In this document: positions 17,769 to 28,722 of the stretch, piece by piece
Layout: every line of letters begins with the position of its first letter
Numbering within the stretch: position 1 is the first letter of the stretch
Assembly: GCA_016178305.1 (NCBI GenBank)
Contig: JACOTM010000038.1
Coordinates: forward strand, 1-40,734
DNA: 40,734 bases
Reading direction: 5' to 3'
Source: Flavobacteriia bacterium
Lineage (GTDB): Bacteria > Bacteroidota > Bacteroidia > Flavobacteriales_D > Crocinitomicaceae
Notes under the pieces: model-generated
Seen by the model: the letters and a program-made list of their open reading frames with translations, nothing else
What the model was told of the DNA's origin: nothing
Databases searched by the model: none
Position numbers and translations under genes: made by a program

Positions 17769-18713
17769 ATGAAAGACTTAAACATTGCAGAACTTGAAAA
17801 GCGATTTCAGGATAAGATTGATAACGATGTTAAAATTGAACCAAATGATTGGATGCCTGAAGATTATCGTCAAACATTGATACGTCAAATCTCTCAACAC
17901 GCACATTCTGAAATCGTAGGAATGTTGCCTGAAGGAAATTGGATTACTAGAGCACCAAATCTTAGAAGAAAGGCTGTATTATTAGCTAAAGTTCAAGATG
18001 AAGCAGGACATGGTTTGTATCTTTATTCAGCGGCTGAAACTTTAGGAGCTGATCGTGAGGAAACAATTGATGATTTACATACAGGTAAAGCAAAATACTC
18101 GTCTATTTTTAACTATCCTACTTTATCTTGGGCTGACATGGGTGCTGTTGGTTGGCTTGTAGATGGTGCGGCAATTATGAATCAAGTTCCGTTGTGTAGA
18201 TGTTCCTATGGACCTTATGCGCGAGCGATGGTTCGTGTTTGTAAAGAAGAATCTTTTCATCAAAGACAAGGGTTTGAAATCATTGCTCATTTAGCTCAAG
18301 GAACACCAGCTCAAAAAGAAATGGCACAAGATGCTTTGAATCGTTTTTGGTGGCCCGCATTGATGATGTTTGGACCAAATGATGCTGAATCTAAACATAC
18401 TGTTCAGTCAATGAAATGGAAAATCAAACGAATGACAAACGATGAATTACGTCAGCAATTTGTTGATGTTACAGTTCCTCAAGCGTATATGATTGGTTTA
18501 ACAATTCCTGATAAAGATTTAAAATTTAATGAAGTTACAGGACATTATGAGTCTGGCGAAATTGATTGGACTGAATTTTGGGAAGTTGTAAAAGGAAATG
18601 GACCGTGCAATAAAGAACGTGTTGACGCTCGAAGAAAAGCAAAAGAAGATGGACTATGGGTTCGTGAAGCTGCTTTGGCATTTGCAGAGAAAAGAAAAAA
18701 TAATAGACCTTAA
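17769..18713 (+). CDS. paaA: 1,2-phenylacetyl-CoA epoxidase subunit A (catalytic)
   Basis: Di-iron oxygenase subunit that adds one oxygen atom of O2 to the ring of phenylacetyl-CoA in aerobic phenylacetate degradation. The protein is 314 residues, the usual length. Two carboxylate-histidine motifs of the ferritin-like fold are visible: E78-A-G-H81 ([19 protein letters not shown]) and E161-S-F-H164 ([14 protein letters not shown]). Other typical segments are [46 protein letters not shown] and [12 protein letters not shown]. It is first in paaABCD and has a strong promoter directly upstream. A 119-base spacer with repeat structure separates it from paaB, longer than expected within such an operon. 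Confidence 0.96.
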
Positions 18714-18823
18714 GATTCAAGACATTAAGAAAAAAGAATTTTGAATATTAATAAATAAAATTAGATTTAAGTTGATAAAGGGCAAGTAGGTCTTTTATCT
18801 TGAATCTTTAAATCTTTATATCT
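18712..18823. repeat. Spacer with inverted AAGATTCAAGA / TCTTGAATCTT and tandem TCTT units
   Basis: Between paaA and paaB, AAGATTCAAGA (18712-18722) and its exact inverse TCTTGAATCTT (18798-18808) lie 75 bases apart. The right part is a run of short units starting with TCTT at 18791, 18798, 18805 and 18813, then TCTA at 18821, with 7- and 8-base periods. It overlaps the paaA stop codon by two bases. Confidence 0.65.
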
Positions 18824-18832
18824 AGTTGAGAA

Positions 18833-19120
18833 ATGAGTAAAAAAGAATGGCCTCTTTGGGAGGTGTTTATCAGAAGTAAGCAAGGATTGAATCATAAGCA
18901 TGTTGGAAGTTTAAGAGCTTCTGACTCAACAATGGCAATTGAAAATGCGCGGGATGTTTATACAAGAAGATCAGAAGGTGTGAGTATTTGGGTAGTTGAA
19001 TCAAACAATGTTTTCGCAAATGATGCCTTGGAAGCAGATGCCTTATTTACGCCTGCAGATTCAAAAATTTATCGTCACCCAACATTTTATGATGTTCCAG
19101 ACGGAATTTCGCACATGTAA
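18833..19120 (+). CDS. paaB: 1,2-phenylacetyl-CoA epoxidase subunit B
   Basis: Small subunit (95 residues) that bridges the PaaA-PaaC heterodimers in the epoxidase. The family signature is clear: WPLWEVFIRSKQGLNHKHVGSLRA at the N-terminus, ENARDVYTRRSEGVSIWVVES in the middle and the C-terminal FYDVPDGISHM. It has no catalytic residues. Its start ATG follows the repeat-bearing spacer from paaA, and a shorter spacer with GTCTT repeats follows before paaC. Confidence 0.96.
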   Translation: MSKKEWPLWEVFIRSKQGLNHKHVGSLRASDSTMAIENARDVYTRRSEGVSIWVVESNNVFANDALEADALFTPADSKIYRHPTFYDVPDGISHM

Positions 19121-19148
19121 AATATTAATAGTTAACAAAGTTGAATAA

Positions 19149-19180
19149 GTCTTCCAGTCTTATGTCTTGAAGTCTTGATT
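19149..19180. repeat. Tandem GTCTT units between paaB and paaC
   Basis: GTCTT occurs at 19149, 19157, 19164 and 19172, spaced 8, 7 and 8 bases. The units read GTCTTCCA, GTCTTAT, GTCTTGAA, GTCTTGAT. The same kind of unit fills the right part of the paaA-paaB spacer. Confidence 0.65.
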
Positions 19181-19192
19181 CTGAAAATAATT

Positions 19193-19951
19193 ATGGAAAA
19201 ACAAAAAGCTTTATACGAATATGTTTTGAGATTAGGGGATGACAGTTTAATTTTGGGACATCGCGTTTCAGAATGGTGCGGACATGGACCTATTTTAGAA
19301 GAGGATATTGCCTTAACGAATTTAGCTTTAGACTTAATAGGACAGGCTACAAGTTTGTTGAATTATGCTGGAGAATTAGAGGGGAAAGGACGTGATGGAG
19401 ATGCTTTAGCATTTTTACGTTACGAAAGAGAATATAAAAATTTACTTTTAGTTGAACAAACAAATGGTGATTTTGGAAAAACGATTTTACGTCAATTTTT
19501 ATTTGATGCCTATCGTAAACCATTATTTGAATGTTTGCAAAAGAGTTCAGATAAAACATTAGCTGCTATTGCTGAAAAGTCATTGAAAGAAACGAAATAT
19601 CACTTGAAACATACATCAGAGTGGGTAATTCGTTTAGGTGATGGAACAGAAGAATCCCATAATCGTATTCAGGATTCTTTAAATTCTATTTGGAAATATA
19701 CGCATGAAATCTTTTATAAAGATGACATAGATTCTGTTTTAATAGCTGAAAACATAATATCTTCGGGGGATGAAATAAAAGCTGAATGGACTAAGACAGT
19801 TTCAGAAGTATTAGCAGAAGCAAAACTTGAAATCCCATCCAATAACTGGATTCAAGAAGGTGGAAGAAAAGGTTTACACACCGAAGCTTTGGGCTATCTT
19901 TTGACTGAATTGCAGTATATGCAGCGTGCATACCCAAATATGACATGGTAA
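19193..19951 (+). CDS. paaC: 1,2-phenylacetyl-CoA epoxidase subunit C
   Basis: Structural ferritin-like subunit that pairs with PaaA; 252 residues with the ATG at 19193. The start MEKQKALYEYVLRLGDDSLILGHRVSEW is the family norm, whereas the six-codon upstream extension from a TTG is not. Conserved segments include EDIALTNLALDLIGQA, LAFLRYEREYKNLLLVEQ and YHLKHTSEWVIRLGDGT, plus the C-terminal GGRKGLHTEALGYLLTELQ that precedes the final MTW. The fold has lost the iron site in this family. It overlaps paaD by seven bases, so the two are translationally linked. Confidence 0.96.
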   Translation: MEKQKALYEYVLRLGDDSLILGHRVSEWCGHGPILEEDIALTNLALDLIGQATSLLNYAGELEGKGRDGDALAFLRYEREYKNLLLVEQTNGDFGKTILRQFLFDAYRKPLFECLQKSSDKTLAAIAEKSLKETKYHLKHTSEWVIRLGDGTEESHNRIQDSLNSIWKYTHEIFYKDDIDSVLIAENIISSGDEIKAEWTKTVSEVLAEAKLEIPSNNWIQEGGRKGLHTEALGYLLTELQYMQRAYPNMTW

Positions 19952-20430
19952 CAGAAAAAGAAATTTGGAATTATTTAGAAGAAGTTTTTGACCCTGAAAT
20001 CCCTGTGTTAACAGTTGTTGACTTAGGGGTTATTCGGTCTGTTGAAATGGAGAATGAAAATTGTAAAATTATCATTACTCCAACATACAGTGGTTGTCCG
20101 GCAATGAAAATGATTGAAGAGGAGATCATTGCAAAATTAAAGGAAAAAGGGGTGAATAATATTTCGGTTGATTTGACCTTATCTCCAGCTTGGAGTACTG
20201 ATTGGATTTCTGAAAACGGGCGAAATAAATTGAGAGAATATGGAATAGCTCCACCTGAAGATGAGGTCGATAAAAGTGTTTTATTTGCCGAACCAACAAA
20301 AGTTCCTTGCCCACAATGTAAGTCGATGAATTCGCGAATGATTAGTTTATTTGGTAGTACAGCTTGTAAAGCTCAATATCAATGTAAAGATTGTCTGGAA
20401 CCTTTTGATTATTTTAAATGTTTGAAATAG
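19945..20430 (+). CDS. paaD: 1,2-phenylacetyl-CoA epoxidase assembly protein PaaD
   Basis: A 161-residue protein needed for epoxidase function, thought to help Fe-S insertion. The N-terminal MIP18/DUF59 domain shows FDPEIPVLTVVDLGVI and the conserved Cys in TYSGCPAMK. The C-terminal region has metal-binding cysteines CPQC, TAC and CKDC. The ATG overlaps paaC. In E. coli the set continues with paaE, the ferredoxin-NADP-type reductase that feeds the di-iron site, and then the hydratases; none is found here. The gene is followed by a structured region and then a convergent TPR gene, so the operon ends at paaD. Confidence 0.94.
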   Translation: MVTEKEIWNYLEEVFDPEIPVLTVVDLGVIRSVEMENENCKIIITPTYSGCPAMKMIEEEIIAKLKEKGVNNISVDLTLSPAWSTDWISENGRNKLREYGIAPPEDEVDKSVLFAEPTKVPCPQCKSMNSRMISLFGSTACKAQYQCKDCLEPFDYFKCLK

Positions 20431-22874: not shown

Positions 22875-24563
22875 TTAAATTGTTTGCAATGTCTTTACAA
22901 AAGTTTTACTGAACATCTCTCTCTGAGATGTTTTACGATAATCTTTACCAAAAAAATCTTTTGTCCAACGATCATCTTCCCATAAATAAGGAGAGAGTGT
23001 ATTCGAATTGTCAATTGATTTATCATTAGTTTTTAAAAGTCTTCCAGCAATATCCCGGAAATAAAAATGATCCCATAGCCTCATGAATTCACCAAGATAA
23101 ATGTCTGAAACCATCGTGTTTCCTTGAATTAACAGCATATTTTCATCATTGTTGATTGTGGATGCTGTACTGAAATTTGCAGAACCGCTGATTATTAGAG
23201 GATTTTCTGATAGAGGATCTTGTAATAGATATTTCGTGTGGAGGTAATTGACGAAATTGTTTAATCCAGTAAGTTTTTCTCCTAACCACCTATGAAATTC
23301 AGAATCTCCGACAGCTGATTGGTTAATAATTTCGCCTATGGAGACAAAATTATTTGAGTTTTTCATATAAATTTCATCAGCAGCTTGTTTCTTTTCAAGC
23401 ATGATATACCGTTTGTTATGAGTATTTGTTGTTAAGTATGATGCGATTGTTTTATTTACTCCAAATGCAGCAGTGAAACAGCAAAAACTTTCAGCTTTGT
23501 CGATTTGTTGTGCATACCAATTTAGTACATTTTCGGAGCTTCTGGGACTGAAGATAGGATGAATTCCTTTGGCTAATGAAGAAAGGGGATCATTTGTTTC
23601 TTTGATAGTCCATGGTCTTAACAATTTCGCATCCGTATTTTGGGATAGTATTGTCCAATAATTTAAATATTGACTTGCAATTTCAATGTCGCGAACAATA
23701 TGTACGACATTGGATTGCCCATAGATTCCCCCATCTGTAAAATTGGTTGAACCAGTTAAGACTTGAATTGGTTGATTATCTTTCAGTAAGACAATAAATT
23801 TGTTATGGGAAATGTAACTAGGGTTTGCAGATCGAGGAATCATTAAATTTCGAATTCCAACTTGATCAATCATTTGATTGCTTGTTGCTTGAGGTTCATC
23901 TTTTCGGCAATCATATACAATTTTTACATCCGCGCCATTTTCTGAAGCCGTTTTAAGTGCCGTTAAAACACCTAAATGACTAAATTCATAAGCTGCTGCT
24001 CTTATTGAAAATGAAGAATTATTCGCTAATCCAATAAAACTTAAAATAGCTTCTTCGGCACCTCTTGATAGCCACTGATAAGCCTCTTTACCAATTTCAT
24101 CAGGTCTTTTATTTCCAAATTTTCGAGCGTATGCCTGACTTCCTGCGGCTCCTCTATTGAAATAAATTGCATGTGTTTGATTATCTTCATCCTCTGTTTG
24201 AACCTCAATTTCAATACTTTCAGAATGGTTTAATTGAGAAGGTGTTCCAAAAACAGGGATAACTTTATAGACGTATGAATGGTTTGGTTTTGCAGTATAA
24301 TCTCCCCATTTGAAATCCTGAATCGGAGCAATTTCAGAAGATATCAATTCGCCAGGTTTTGGATTAGGCATTGTTGATTCAAAAGTTTTAAAACTTAATA
24401 ACCAACCTTCATTTTTTTCAGTTAAATCTTTTCTGTAAATTGAAAATCCTAATAGACCTTTTGTTGAATTTTCATCTAAATCCATTGTTAACAAAACAAC
24501 GTAAGTTCCCGCTATCGCAGTTACTTTGAATGTATTTGTAGTATTACTTTTTGAATTTCTCAT
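22875..24563 (-). CDS. Phospholipase D-like protein with two HKD motifs
   Basis: A 562-residue protein of the phospholipase D/nuclease superfamily. The N-terminal ~120 residues look like a fibronectin type III-like beta domain (AGTYVVLLTMDLDEN, GFSIYRKDLTEK, YVYKVIPVFG). Two catalytic half-sites follow: HNKFIVLLKD with His253 followed by GSTNFT, and HTKYLLQD with His442 followed by GSANFS and NNDENML. Both have the H-x-K-x4-D and G-S-x-N-F/x-S/T elements, so the dimeric-type active site is complete in one chain. There is no signal peptide, so it is likely cytoplasmic. Substrate may be phospholipid or nucleic acid. It is divergent from the DyP-glycyl radical enzyme gene and shares 232 bases of regulatory region with it, which may indicate a common function. 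Confidence 0.88.
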   Translation of the reverse strand: MRNSKSNTTNTFKVTAIAGTYVVLLTMDLDENSTKGLLGFSIYRKDLTEKNEGWLLSFKTFESTMPNPKPGELISSEIAPIQDFKWGDYTAKPNHSYVYKVIPVFGTPSQLNHSESIEIEVQTEDEDNQTHAIYFNRGAAGSQAYARKFGNKRPDEIGKEAYQWLSRGAEEAILSFIGLANNSSFSIRAAAYEFSHLGVLTALKTASENGADVKIVYDCRKDEPQATSNQMIDQVGIRNLMIPRSANPSYISHNKFIVLLKDNQPIQVLTGSTNFTDGGIYGQSNVVHIVRDIEIASQYLNYWTILSQNTDAKLLRPWTIKETNDPLSSLAKGIHPIFSPRSSENVLNWYAQQIDKAESFCCFTAAFGVNKTIASYLTTNTHNKRYIMLEKKQAADEIYMKNSNNFVSIGEIINQSAVGDSEFHRWLGEKLTGLNNFVNYLHTKYLLQDPLSENPLIISGSANFSTASTINNDENMLLIQGNTMVSDIYLGEFMRLWDHFYFRDIAGRLLKTNDKSIDNSNTLSPYLWEDDRWTKDFFGKDYRKTSQREMFSKTFVKTLQTI

Positions 24564-24795: not shown

Positions 24796-27700
24796 ATGGA
24801 AAAAATGAACATTGAAAAAAGATTTAAAGAAGTATGGAAACATACACAAAGAGGGTTAGTTTATCCTTCCCCACATGCAATTTTTGCTACTTTTTGGTTG
24901 AAAAATACGCCAACAAAAAACGAGTTAGCTGATCTCATGGCTACTACCAGGTTTCAAATTAATACAGATTTAGAGTTAAAAAGTAAAAATACATCTGTTA
25001 TTTTAGGGGTATCGTTTCAAAATTGGGAAATAATTTGCAAGGAAAATAAAATGACGATTCCCAAAGGTATGAGTTTGTGTTATCCCCAAGAAAATGAACC
25101 AACAAAGTCTAAAGTTTTTGAAGAATCAAATGGTGTTTTTGAAGAATCAGATGGCAGTGTTTGGTTTCATATTAAAAGTGATGATGAAATTGCTTGTGAA
25201 AAAGTATTAAAGATTATTACAGAGATCTTGAAGACAAATACGAAAGCACATTTTTCTCAAAAAGCAGCCTCTAAATCAAGTGAGAAAAGCGGTCACAATG
25301 GAAAAGTATTAGGGTGTCGATTTTCTGAAAATTTAAACAATCCTTCTGATCCAATCTCCATTGCGAAGCATTCAATTGTAGGCACAGAAGATATTTCTCA
25401 TTTTGGGGGTTCATTTGTTTTAGCGCAAAGATTTTTAATTAACTGGGATCAAATCAATATGATGACTGAAACTCAAATTGAAGATTTAATTGGTAGAAAA
25501 ACAGACGATACAATAATTCCAGATAGAGATTCACGTTCGCATATTAAATCTGCACGTTTACAAGATGAAAATGGAAATACAACTCCTGTTTTAAGATTAG
25601 GTTTGCCTTTCGGAAATGCAAAGCAATCATCAGGTGGGTTTAGAGTGCCAAAATCAGTTACGGTCTCTGATGAAGAGGGAATTTATTTTGCTGGATTTTG
25701 TAAAGATGTTAAAATTTTAGAGAATATTATTCGGAATCAAATTGGGCCTGATCAAGGATTTATGAATGATCGTTTATTTAACCATTTAAAATCTGATTTA
25801 GGTGGATTTTTCTATATTCCAAGTGTAAATGATTTAGGTTTAGATAAAATAGAAGATTATTCAAATGATTTTTCTTTTTTAGATAAAGGTGACTGGTCTC
25901 GTTTTCCAGGTGTTGATTGGTCTCGCTTAGATCGTCATTTCACGAATTCTTCAGCAAATGGTTTAATGTATTACAGCCATCAGAATTATTTGTTTAATAT
26001 GTCAACTCAAATTAATCATAAAAGTAAATTTTTTAAAACACCTTCTAATCGGATTTTAAGTTTATTAGAAAATACGTTTTCTTTATGGCAAGACAACTGG
26101 TATTTCAATAGAAAACAAGAAGAAATAAAAGGAGATATTTCAGATTATATAAAAGATTTCAAGTGTGCAGCTAAACCAACAGACATCATGAAAGAGTCAA
26201 TTATGGTTCGGAAAGGTTGGGCAATTCGATTGAGTTTAGGTCTTTTTTCTTCTTCTGAATATGGCTTTAGAGGACGACGTATCAAATTGAAAGATGGCTC
26301 TTTAGTACCTTATTCGTCCTATCTAGAAAAAGAAGGGGAAGTTATTTATGGTTCAGATACTTATCGAATTTCTCCAGAAGAAATAATTGTGGGAGCTATG
26401 CCTAATTTAACTCTTGGAGAAGGACGGTATGTGATGAAATATTTATCTGAAGCAGAAAGATTAGATGGTTTTTTAGCGAATTTAAGTGAAGCATCCGGAG
26501 TTGGACATGTCATTCCAAATTATGAAAAAGCATTAAAATTAGGATTAAATGCAATTAAAGATGAAATATTACAATATGAATCAAGAGCTGAAAATCAGGA
26601 ACTAAAAGATTTATATACTTCTTCTTTTTTGGCTATTGAAGGAATTTCAGAATATTTTTTAAATTACGCTAAATTAGCTAGAGAAACAGCTTCCAAAATG
26701 GATGTCGGACAAATTTGGGAAAAAGAAAATTTAGAATCAATCGCACACCGAATGACGAAATTATCTACCGAAAAACCAGATACATTCGTCGAAGCAGTTC
26801 AAATGATTTTTACACTTCATAACTGTTTGCATCTAAATGCTGAACCAACAGCAATAGGTCGAATGGATCAATTGCTTCAGCCTTTTTATGAAAAAGATTC
26901 AATTTCTGAAGATGAGGCACAAGAGGTTATTGATGCTTTTTACATCAAGTTGGATGAAAAAGTACAGCAAAATAGAATCTTTATGGAAGATCATCAACCT
27001 TTTGGAAATTTAGCAATGGGTGGAAGTTCAGGGCCGTATCCCCAAGGTGCTTCTCTTGGTCAATGGATTCAACAAATTACTGTGGGTGGAACAATTGCAG
27101 ATGGAACAGTTAATTTTGAAGATACAAAACCGGCATACAATGATGTAACAAAATTATTTATTCGTGCATCAGGTCGTTTACCATTAAATGCACCTTGTTT
27201 GTCTTTGAGAACTAGAAAAGATATTCCAGAAGAAATCTTAAATGAAGCTGCACATGCTGTTTTATCTGGTGGAGCTCACCCGATTTTATTGAATGATGAA
27301 AAAATCATTAAAGGGTTATATCATAGTGGAGATAAAGTAGGAGGAAGGTTAGGAGAAGAAACTAAAAGTTGGAACCCTTCTGTTACCTTAAAGTCGGCGC
27401 AAAACTATGCTTGTGATGGCTGTTATGAACCTCAATTTCCTGGCGAAAATTGGTTTTCTTTAGGCGGTTTTTCTACTTTGCAGCCTTTAGAATGTGCTTT
27501 AAATCAAGGGCGAACTTATTCTTCTGCAGGTCAAGGATATTTGTTTGGACAAACTGTCTCATTAAATTCAAAACCTGCAGATCAAATCAAGACTTTTGAG
27601 GAATTAGTAGATATTTATTTTGAACATTTTGAATTATTCAATCGAAAAGCATTCAATGGTCAAATAATGGGGTATGGAGCAAATACAAAGTTTTGTCCTT

Positions 27701-28722
27701 CGCCAATTTTGAATGTGTTAATGGATGATTGTTTAGTTAAAGGTCAAGATTTTTATAGCGGTGGTGCTAAATACAATATTTATGGACCATGTTACATTTC
27801 TTTAAGCTCTACAATTAATTCGCTTTATGCGATTAAAAAGATGGTTTTTGATGAAAAGAATGCAGTTACGACATTACCTGAATTATTAGAATGTTTATGT
27901 TGTGATTGGGGATACAAAATGACAGAACCATTTATTAGTAGTTTAGCTGGAGACACTCGAATTAATGAACGTGCGGATCGATTTAAAAGATTAAGAGAAT
28001 TTGCATTGAATCAACCAAAATATGGTAGAGGGCACTCTGAATTAGATGCTTTAGGAAATCTTATTGTAGAAAAGGTTGCTAAAATATCCGTTAAAACATT
28101 TACTGAACCTTGGCCACAAATGTATGATTCTTTAAAATCAATGGCTTTGAAATTTGGTTCAGAAGAATTCCCTTTTGGATTACAAATTCAACCAGGAGTG
28201 GGTACATTTGAAAACCATGTAGAAATGGGGTCTTGGAATGGAGCAAGTGCTGATGGTAGGAGATTAGGGACATCTGTCGCTTCTGATTTAAGTGCTGCAC
28301 CAAGTCCAGCCGATTTACCGATTGAACATCAATTAGCTGGATTTTCAGAATCATTAGCAGGTTTTGAAGGGAAAGGAACAGATTTAATGACAGATGGCGC
28401 TCCAACAGATTATAATATCGATGAAAATTTTCCAGTTGAAAAATTAGTTCAAATTATGAAACAATTTGTTCAAGGGCATTCTTCAAATATATTAACTGTT
28501 ACAGTTGCTAATTCTGAAACTTTTTCTGTTGCAGTTGATAATCCGGAACAATATGATTTATTACGTGTTCGTACAGGTGGTTGGACAAATTTCTTTACAT
28601 CTGTTTTTCCAATTATTCAAGATCAACATAGAAGAAGGCCAATTTCAACTCCTGTTGATATTGTAAAAGAAGCTGCAAAAGCTGCTGGTTGTCCTTTTCA
28701 TAATAAAATGGTAGAGAATTAA
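24796..28722 (+). CDS. DyP-type peroxidase domain fused to a PFL-like glycyl radical enzyme
   Basis: One uninterrupted 1308-residue frame with two large domains and no signal peptide. Residues 1-345 resemble class B DyP haem peroxidases (YfeX type): SVWFHIKSDDEIACEKV, GGSFVLAQRFLINWDQ, LIGRKTDD, proximal haem ligand His249 in RSHIKSA, Arg267 in VLRLGLPFG, and GGFFYIPSVNDL. The GxxDG motif that carries the distal Asp is GCRFS here (173-177), so Asp is replaced by Phe176. After an aromatic-rich linker, residues from about 430 to the end form a PFL-like glycyl radical enzyme: GHVIPNYEKALKLGL, GRMDQLLQPFYEKD, catalytic Cys876 and Glu878 in GCYEP, and the radical loop VRTGGWTNFF with Gly1262. The GCxE form resembles the dehydratase/C-N lyase branch more than true PFL. 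The tail ends with CPFH. No radical-SAM activase is in the window. Substrate unknown. Confidence 0.88.
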   Translation: MEKMNIEKRFKEVWKHTQRGLVYPSPHAIFATFWLKNTPTKNELADLMATTRFQINTDLELKSKNTSVILGVSFQNWEIICKENKMTIPKGMSLCYPQENEPTKSKVFEESNGVFEESDGSVWFHIKSDDEIACEKVLKIITEILKTNTKAHFSQKAASKSSEKSGHNGKVLGCRFSENLNNPSDPISIAKHSIVGTEDISHFGGSFVLAQRFLINWDQINMMTETQIEDLIGRKTDDTIIPDRDSRSHIKSARLQDENGNTTPVLRLGLPFGNAKQSSGGFRVPKSVTVSDEEGIYFAGFCKDVKILENIIRNQIGPDQGFMNDRLFNHLKSDLGGFFYIPSVNDLGLDKIEDYSNDFSFLDKGDWSRFPGVDWSRLDRHFTNSSANGLMYYSHQNYLFNMSTQINHKSKFFKTPSNRILSLLENTFSLWQDNWYFNRKQEEIKGDISDYIKDFKCAAKPTDIMKESIMVRKGWAIRLSLGLFSSSEYGFRGRRIKLKDGSLVPYSSYLEKEGEVIYGSDTYRISPEEIIVGAMPNLTLGEGRYVMKYLSEAERLDGFLANLSEASGVGHVIPNYEKALKLGLNAIKDEILQYESRAENQELKDLYTSSFLAIEGISEYFLNYAKLARETASKMDVGQIWEKENLESIAHRMTKLSTEKPDTFVEAVQMIFTLHNCLHLNAEPTAIGRMDQLLQPFYEKDSISEDEAQEVIDAFYIKLDEKVQQNRIFMEDHQPFGNLAMGGSSGPYPQGASLGQWIQQITVGGTIADGTVNFEDTKPAYNDVTKLFIRASGRLPLNAPCLSLRTRKDIPEEILNEAAHAVLSGGAHPILLNDEKIIKGLYHSGDKVGGRLGEETKSWNPSVTLKSAQNYACDGCYEPQFPGENWFSLGGFSTLQPLECALNQGRTYSSAGQGYLFGQTVSLNSKPADQIKTFEELVDIYFEHFELFNRKAFNGQIMGYGANTKFCPSPILNVLMDDCLVKGQDFYSGGAKYNIYGPCYISLSSTINSLYAIKKMVFDEKNAVTTLPELLECLCCDWGYKMTEPFISSLAGDTRINERADRFKRLREFALNQPKYGRGHSELDALGNLIVEKVAKISVKTFTEPWPQMYDSLKSMALKFGSEEFPFGLQIQPGVGTFENHVEMGSWNGASADGRRLGTSVASDLSAAPSPADLPIEHQLAGFSESLAGFEGKGTDLMTDGAPTDYNIDENFPVEKLVQIMKQFVQGHSSNILTVTVANSETFSVAVDNPEQYDLLRVRTGGWTNFFTSVFPIIQDQHRRRPISTPVDIVKEAAKAAGCPFHNKMVEN
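25114..25155 (+). repeat. In-frame 21-base tandem duplication in the DyP domain
   Basis: Two adjacent 21-base units (25114-25134 and 25135-25155) differ at two positions and encode VFEESNG then VFEESDG. They lie in a surface-loop region between the N-terminal DyP segment and the SVWFHIKSDD strand, and keep the frame. Confidence 0.9.

Follow-up and report, generated by a model that had tools for sequence, protein, structure and literature searches.

The window analysed here, a stretch of 40,734 nucleotides that makes up contig JACOTM010000038.1 of a Flavobacteriia bacterium, contains a gene in which a dye-decolorizing peroxidase (DyP) and a glycyl radical enzyme (GRE) are fused into one protein. 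We propose that this fusion is a self-contained GRE started by peroxide, in which the DyP domain replaces the activase, and put the probability of this reading at roughly 45%. The wider proposal, that GREs which make their radical oxidatively (haem and peroxide) and not reductively (S-adenosylmethionine, AdoMet, and a radical-SAM activase) have arisen at least twice via different DyPs and spread among aerobes, is one we hold slightly more tentatively. To our knowledge, every characterised GRE requires both a radical-SAM activase and anoxic conditions. If true, the proposal would add a second way of making glycyl radicals, illustrate how an anaerobic radical chemistry came to operate in air and provide a one-gene radical enzyme for biocatalysis; by analogy, it would correspond, among GREs, to the transition from class III to class I ribonucleotide reductase.

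The gene is a single ATG-to-stop frame of 1308 codons with no internal stop. We use class B and class D as what we take to be the labels of DyP classes, and call the corresponding fusions B fusions and the D fusion; the window encodes a B fusion with the following features:

24796-28722 (+): DyP-GRE fusion gene, 1308 amino acids, with N-terminal DyP peroxidase, linker and glycyl radical enzyme (Pfam, NCBIfam, homologues)
24856-25836 (+): DyP domain in two halves, residues 21-347 (TIGR01413 match over 21-346, PDB sequence match, Foldseek)
25327-25329 (+): Glu178 codon, at the site of the distal Asp in the DyP GxxDG motif (FSEN versus FVDG; alignment to PDB DyPs and B2 fusions)
25540-25542 (+): His249 codon, expected proximal haem ligand, invariant
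25594-25596 (+): Arg267 codon, expected distal DyP arginine, invariant, aligning with LR.NMPFG of PDB DyPs
25837-25998 (+): linker, residues 348-401 (conservation)
25999-28644 (+): GRE domain, residues 402-1283 (PFL-like match, structural match)
27421-27429 (+): Cys876-Tyr877-Glu878 (GCYEP), expected thiyl cysteine and catalytic Glu, invariant
27907-27909 (+): Trp1038 codon, candidate radical-path residue (alignment)
28579-28584 (+): Gly1262-Trp1263, expected glycyl radical site, RxGGW where others have RV[AS]GY

The sequence-only reading of this DNA had seen a class-B-like DyP and a GRE in one chain, and the profiles, the single frame and the motifs at the residues it named bear this out. The DyP part scores 127.8 bits with the NCBIfam family profile TIGR01413 (Dyp_perox_fam), above its cut-off of 100.5, and Pfam Dyp_perox_C matches residues 181-344 (E 2.7e-15, 56.9 bits versus a cut-off of 20). 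The GRE part contains a pyruvate formate-lyase (PFL)-like barrel (Pfam PF02901, residues 557-1103, E 5.9e-100) and a Pfam Gly_radical match at residues 1208-1267 which, at 19.7 bits, lies slightly under the cut-off of 22.2. The motifs GGSFVLAQRF and LIGRK occupy residues 204-213 and 231-235, and H249, C876/E878 and G1262 are where they were predicted to be. We take H249 to be the proximal haem ligand and R267 the distal arginine, as these motifs are understood for DyPs. Both residues, like the GCYEP stretch and VRTGGW, do not vary across 25 sequences, and C876 and G1262 align with the thiyl Cys and glycyl-loop Gly of E. coli GREs. PDB sequence searches with the fusion protein returned glycerol/propanediol dehydratases and DyPs. 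AF2 models, of use for the fold only (residues 109-1308, mean pLDDT 52.4, pTM 0.58; residues 1-370, mean pLDDT 55.4), agree with this: VIA-align matched residues ~402-1274 of the low-confidence model to GREs, best to a GRE dehydratase (Z up to 19.2, rmsd 4.6, 629 aligned), and Foldseek of a low-confidence model found RHA1 DypB (E 2.5e-11).

The GRE part is not a PFL proper (TIGR01255, 22.7 bits versus 994), having GC instead of an adjacent Cys-Cys pair. It scores 207 bits with TIGR01774 (PFL2-3), under the cut-off of 678, and is far under every NCBIfam equivalog cut-off for CutC, HypD, HPAD, indoleacetate decarboxylase and sulfopropanediol dehydratase. The PFL-like fold, GCxE and a C-terminal Gly loop are common to the fusion and the GRE dehydratases and lyases (glycerol and propanediol dehydratase, CutC, HypD, YbiW, PflD); unlike these, the fusion has RxGGW in place of RV[AS]GY, a Tyr or Trp after the Cys, no activase and no equivalog match above cut-off. 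Its GRE part is 23-25% identical to E. coli YbiW and PflD, and the clade motifs GC[YW]E and RxGGW contrast with GC[VI]E and RV[AS]GY in these two enzymes and CutC, and with CCVS in PflB. The residue aligned to the Asp behind the Cys of glycerol dehydratase, an Asp that presumably has a role there, is Ser in the fusion, so a plain diol substrate is not favoured.

With class-B DyPs (RHA1 DypB, TyrA, YfeX, encapsulated DyPs) the fusion shares the profile, the His, the Arg and the PDB sequence and fold matches, but it carries a fused GRE and, in the window's clade, Glu for the distal Asp. This Glu (FSEN) is also found in a B fusion on an Asticcacaulis plasmid (L170), and the GxxDG Asp is retained in two distant B fusions, L162 (RFIDG) and L163 (RFRDA), and in the D fusion; L162, L163 and L170 all keep counterparts of H249 and R267. 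We considered whether GCRFSENLNNP marks the loss of the distal acid and rejected this, the alignment showing an Asp-to-Glu exchange.

The sequence-only reading had called for a search for the same architecture in other genomes and had raised the worry of an assembly join. A scan of genome contigs returned 25 loci with 64-78% identity, one of them (L024) partial at a contig end. The other 24, complete or almost complete, are further independent copies from public genomes, so the worry is removed and an assembly artefact is rejected. The hosts span Bacteroidota and Pseudomonadota (Pedobacter, Taibaiella, Flavobacterium, Trinickia, Burkholderia, Acinetobacter, Rheinheimera, Shewanella, Marinomonas, Hahella and a gammaproteobacterial metagenome-assembled genome, MAG). 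Many are of genera that we understand to be aerobic, in agreement with the aerobic life first suggested. Identity over the GRE part falls to 41% in L162 (1210 aa), 39% in L163 (1209 aa) and 44% in the Asticcacaulis plasmid fusion. The B fusion is rare: among 395 genomes sampled from the window's phylum it was present in the window's own genome only, and among 369 Gammaproteobacteria in two, one being the query centre. The tree clusters the copies from Acinetobacter and Burkholderiaceae with those of Bacteroidota and not with those of Rheinheimera, Shewanella, Marinomonas and Hahella, a topology that suggests that the fusion moved between phyla.

Across 25 sequences, 559 of the 1308 positions are invariant: 97/179 in the C-terminal half of the DyP domain (169-347), 22/54 in the linker and 406/882 in the GRE part. 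Cys876, Glu878 and Gly1262 are retained in all 28 B fusions, with counterparts in the D fusion and in a Hymenobacter GRE described below.

The fusion architecture is already in print. The sequence-only reading knew of no description of it, which does not hold: PMC5041501 (2016), in the text available, lists a "Dyp_B peroxidase (fusion w. PFL)" in Chaetomium and relatives, calls its significance "elusive", cites a 2014 encyclopaedia article for the fusion in other genomes, infers horizontal transfer between proteobacteria and ascomycetes and assumes conventional activation. Compared by its description there, the fungal protein has the same order of an N-terminal class-B DyP and a C-terminal PFL-like part. 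Our literature searches, which covered few subscription journals, found no other paper describing the fusion. Nor did they return the pattern of absent activases around it, although they were not aimed at missing activases or a class-D fusion.

That pattern emerged from a census with the GRE activase profile TIGR02494, run on 22 of the 25 scan-locus genomes (L023, L024 and L025, whose records carry MAG titles, were excluded). One of the 22 contained a gene over the cut-off. None of four further genomes (the window's own, G299, G595 and G1013) did, against all seven genomes with unfused GREs in the same run; 25 of the 26 fusion-bearing genomes thus have no gene above the TIGR02494 cut-off. In the remaining one, Shewanella abyssi (G016), the activase (C32:51163) directly follows a separate 770-aa PFL frame (C32:48734-50509). 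In 24 of the 25 fusion genomes searched, and likewise in the window's genome, the fusion is the sole PFL-like gene. An activase profile built locally matched at 0/31 coupled loci and at 10/10 unfused GRE loci, eight of which were used to build the model. Matches to TIGR02494 below the cut-off occur in 17 of the 21 other scan-locus genomes, many at ~20-38 bits. The best of them, in Trinickia (73.6 bits, L109:1297-1707), is a C-terminal remnant of a PFL-type activase, a 136-aa frame with no CxxxCxxC in the ~700 bases preceding it, and is in line with activase loss.

Both activase-linked and DyP-linked members occur in the clade of this GRE domain. The sample of 395 genomes gave weaker matches in three further genomes (G299, G260 and G143). 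G299 contains a second fusion (L105/L141), the D fusion, whose DyP matches Pfam DyP_N (PF21105) and has an intact GFRDG motif. G260 and G143 encode unfused GREs of 907 and 827 aa, each directly adjoined by a radical-SAM activase (L142, L143). These activases score 184-185 bits with TIGR02494 versus the cut-off of 174, so the profile does detect activases of this GRE clade. A Hymenobacter plasmid carries two GRE pieces in succession and, behind them, a separate DyP gene; both shift frame once in this record, which may reflect errors or decay. An IQ-TREE phylogeny of 31 GRE domains (42 rows less 11 near-copies) supports the clade at 100/100, joins the D fusion to the two activase-linked GREs (100/96) and joins Hymenobacter to the B fusions (100/100). 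An approximately unbiased (AU) test rejected a single clade of B fusions, D fusion and Hymenobacter (p-AU 0.0065), and one of B and D fusions alone (7.7e-9). By these trees, DyP was probably coupled to this GRE clade more than once, with at least two couplings. Within the clade, DyP and activase look mutually exclusive. Among 320 genomes of the D fusion's family there was no second D fusion and there were two DyP-only relatives; plasmid searches showed no clade member beyond Asticcacaulis and Hymenobacter among the matches listed (15 of 33 for the D-fusion query, 15 of 22 for the unfused-relative query).

Taken most simply, the missing activase, the kept Cys and Gly, the conserved linker and the probable repeated capture of DyP point to the DyP domain as the supplier of the oxidant. 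A ferryl haem is oxidising enough for Tyr or Trp and for Cys, and a thiyl radical can take hydrogen from glycine, whose C-H bond is weaker. In the proposed mechanism the DyP domain would bind haem and react with H2O2 or another peroxide to give a ferryl/Compound I state. The ferryl haem would draw an electron and a proton from the GRE barrel through aromatic residues, leaving a thiyl radical on Cys876, and downhill hydrogen transfer would then place the radical on Gly1262. This route would replace the reductive, oxygen-sensitive radical-SAM activase, and the barrel would go on to run a bond-breaking radical reaction on a substrate. Haem binding, peroxide trigger, radical transfer and use of the glycyl radical are all inferred from sequence. 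Trp1038 is a candidate for the radical path, being Trp in every aligned DyP-coupled member and Phe in both activase-linked relatives; Trp431 and Trp757 are shared by all B fusions and Hymenobacter, and the D fusion and both activase-linked GREs lack Trp there. These patterns coincide with the phylogeny and are confounded by it. That the haem domain makes the glycyl radical was the bolder suggestion of the sequence-only reading, and it gains indirect support from the missing activases, the apparent mutual exclusivity and the probable repeated coupling. Further points in favour of a peroxide-started GRE, described below, are the peroxide induction of the fungal fusion gene, the radical-SAM set of Acinetobacter nosocomialis and the signs of a one-gene unit.

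An analogy can be drawn with class I ribonucleotide reductase, in which a metal centre with oxygen chemistry, and not AdoMet, starts a radical barrel enzyme (PMC4390871). It differs from the fusion in having a separate dimetal subunit, no haem, no glycyl radical and an unrelated starter domain. The available text of the same paper has the class III enzyme using an AdoMet activase and, for GREs, names radical-SAM activases only.

Several observations weigh against a peroxide-started GRE. O2 cleaves glycyl radicals, so forming one in air would be odd. The census would miss a very divergent or non-radical-SAM activase, and most of the genomes are drafts. S. abyssi has an extra activase-like match under the cut-off (130.7 bits, a 316-aa frame on C48), and the window's genome has one radical-SAM protein with an activase name, NrdG2, an activase relative. 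The exclusivity of DyP and activase rests on few lineages, since only two unfused members of the clade and one D fusion were found; the groups in the AU tests were named after the tree had been inspected, and the tree has long branches. The sequence-only reading had proposed modelling the positions of the haem and the radical site: the models support the folds and are too poor for distances between the haem and Cys876 or Gly1262. Finally, a putative PFL activase is reported elsewhere in the Chaetomium genome in the available text of PMC5041501, in contrast to the bacterial hosts here, of which all but one of 26 lack an activase above the cut-off.

Of the alternatives, the one that survives best, though we consider it unlikely, is the milder suggestion of the sequence-only reading, that the DyP domain shields an ordinarily activated, oxygen-sensitive GRE by destroying H2O2 or organic peroxides beside it. 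DyPs are peroxidases, and the probable recruitment of DyP to the same GRE clade more than once would suit such a role. So would the induction of the fungal fusion gene by peroxides, 3-fold by H2O2 and 18.5-fold by peroxyacetic acid, in the available text of PMC5041501. However, a shield leaves the missing activases unexplained in all but one of the fusion genomes, and a peroxidase does not remove O2. In Moraxella osloensis and Acinetobacter towneri, plasmids keep an activase adjoining an unfused GRE, which also speaks against a shield. Both genera are, we believe, aerobic, so aerobic life alone does not explain the loss of the activase.

Somewhat less probable again is a hidden activase, a divergent or shared radical-SAM protein such as NrdG2 that activates the GRE domain in trans. 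The putative activase of the fusion-bearing fungus (PMC5041501, in the text available) would fit, as would several unassigned proteins. The window's genome encodes 17 radical-SAM proteins (16 scanned against NCBIfam, L087 recognised by motif only), and besides NrdG2 it has L083, L085 and the QueE-like L086 below all named-family cut-offs. Among the 14 of G299, six were scanned, with three (L126, L130 and L138) below all cut-offs, and eight were recognised by motif only; the best TIGR02494 score there is 26 bits. Against this, the unassigned proteins of both genomes look, wherever they have a match at all, like SPASM- or B12-type proteins, and Trinickia retains only its C-terminal remnant. The complete chromosome of Acinetobacter nosocomialis encodes 14 radical-SAM proteins, 13 of which clear the cut-off of a different named family (MoaA, HemW, MiaB, PqqE, RimO, BioB, two LipA, RlmN, QueE, YgiQ, UDG-linked and EpmB). 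The 14th, of 469 aa, is HemN/HutW-like and below cut-off, so that none of the 14 is named as or resembles an activase. We rejected NrdG2 of the window's genome as an unlikely activase for the fusion because it directly follows the NrdD genes.

The class III ribonucleotide reductase encoded there (C95, L110:4000-7025) looks split: the 705-aa NrdD frame stops past the zinc site, and a separate small frame immediately before NrdG2 carries the glycyl loop (RVMGYHRP...).

We think it improbable that the DyP and GRE domains act sequentially on one substrate or pathway and are fused for channeling. Such a two-step enzyme would be in keeping with the several phospho- and sulfo-ester hydrolase families nearby, which hint at a common catabolic context. 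Among genes within three of the fusion at 23 loci (117 scanned of 136 listed, two L170 entries replaced by annotated coordinates), we found Phosphoesterase and Metallophos three times each and S1-P1 nuclease, PLDc_2, Sulfatase, FGE-sulfatase and DUF2608 twice each. As a control we scanned 117 of 139 distal genes, and none of these was among its families with at least two members; most singletons are unlisted in this control, L026 was left out, and some of the near matches come from sister genomes (L004/L026, L005/L010). The phosphoesterase theme is suggestive only. On the other side, no partner gene is universal: the widest neighbour family (E 1e-10, 60% coverage) occurs in six loci, all Pedobacter, and the next in five (Pedobacter, Flavobacterium and three Acinetobacter), both several kb away. 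The high identity across phyla and the lack of a neighbour family in more than six loci suggest a one-gene unit working alone. A two-step enzyme also leaves the missing activase unexplained, and the fact that one GRE clade has taken up two or more kinds of DyP suggests selection for general DyP chemistry over a substrate pocket. Equally improbable is a radical-free GRE domain that serves as a scaffold or binding domain, with only the DyP active: the absent activase and the Gly_radical score under the Pfam cut-off would agree with it, but every one of the 28 B fusions retains Cys876, Glu878 and the RxGGW loop, and GRE invariance (406/882) nearly matches that of the DyP C-terminal half (97/179).

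The divergent neighbour of the fusion, 233 bp away, is a possible associate:

22875-24563 (-): PLD-like protein

It is 43% identical over 590 aa to a PLD-like protein encoded beside the Hymenobacter GRE and DyP genes (L171:11776-13704).

In Marinomonas (L018:6446-12848) and Hahella (L019:2782-9104), the fusion is located between a gene of 5'-nucleotidase/metallophosphatase type and an S1/P1 nuclease gene; these flanking genes we assign tentatively from motifs, and the families themselves are in the pooled tally. A DUF2608 gene, presumably HAD-like, is found downstream of the B2 fusion in both L162 (2045-3034) and L163 (10473-11423), the two being 48% identical. FGE-sulfatase domain genes lie upstream of the D fusion, together with a XendoU endoribonuclease gene (L141:2688-4759), and directly upstream of the Asticcacaulis B fusion (L170:6903-7904). 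Elsewhere in the window, at 17769-20430, paaA, paaC and paaD are confirmed by NCBIfam, and the frame between paaA and paaC is paaB-like by eye.

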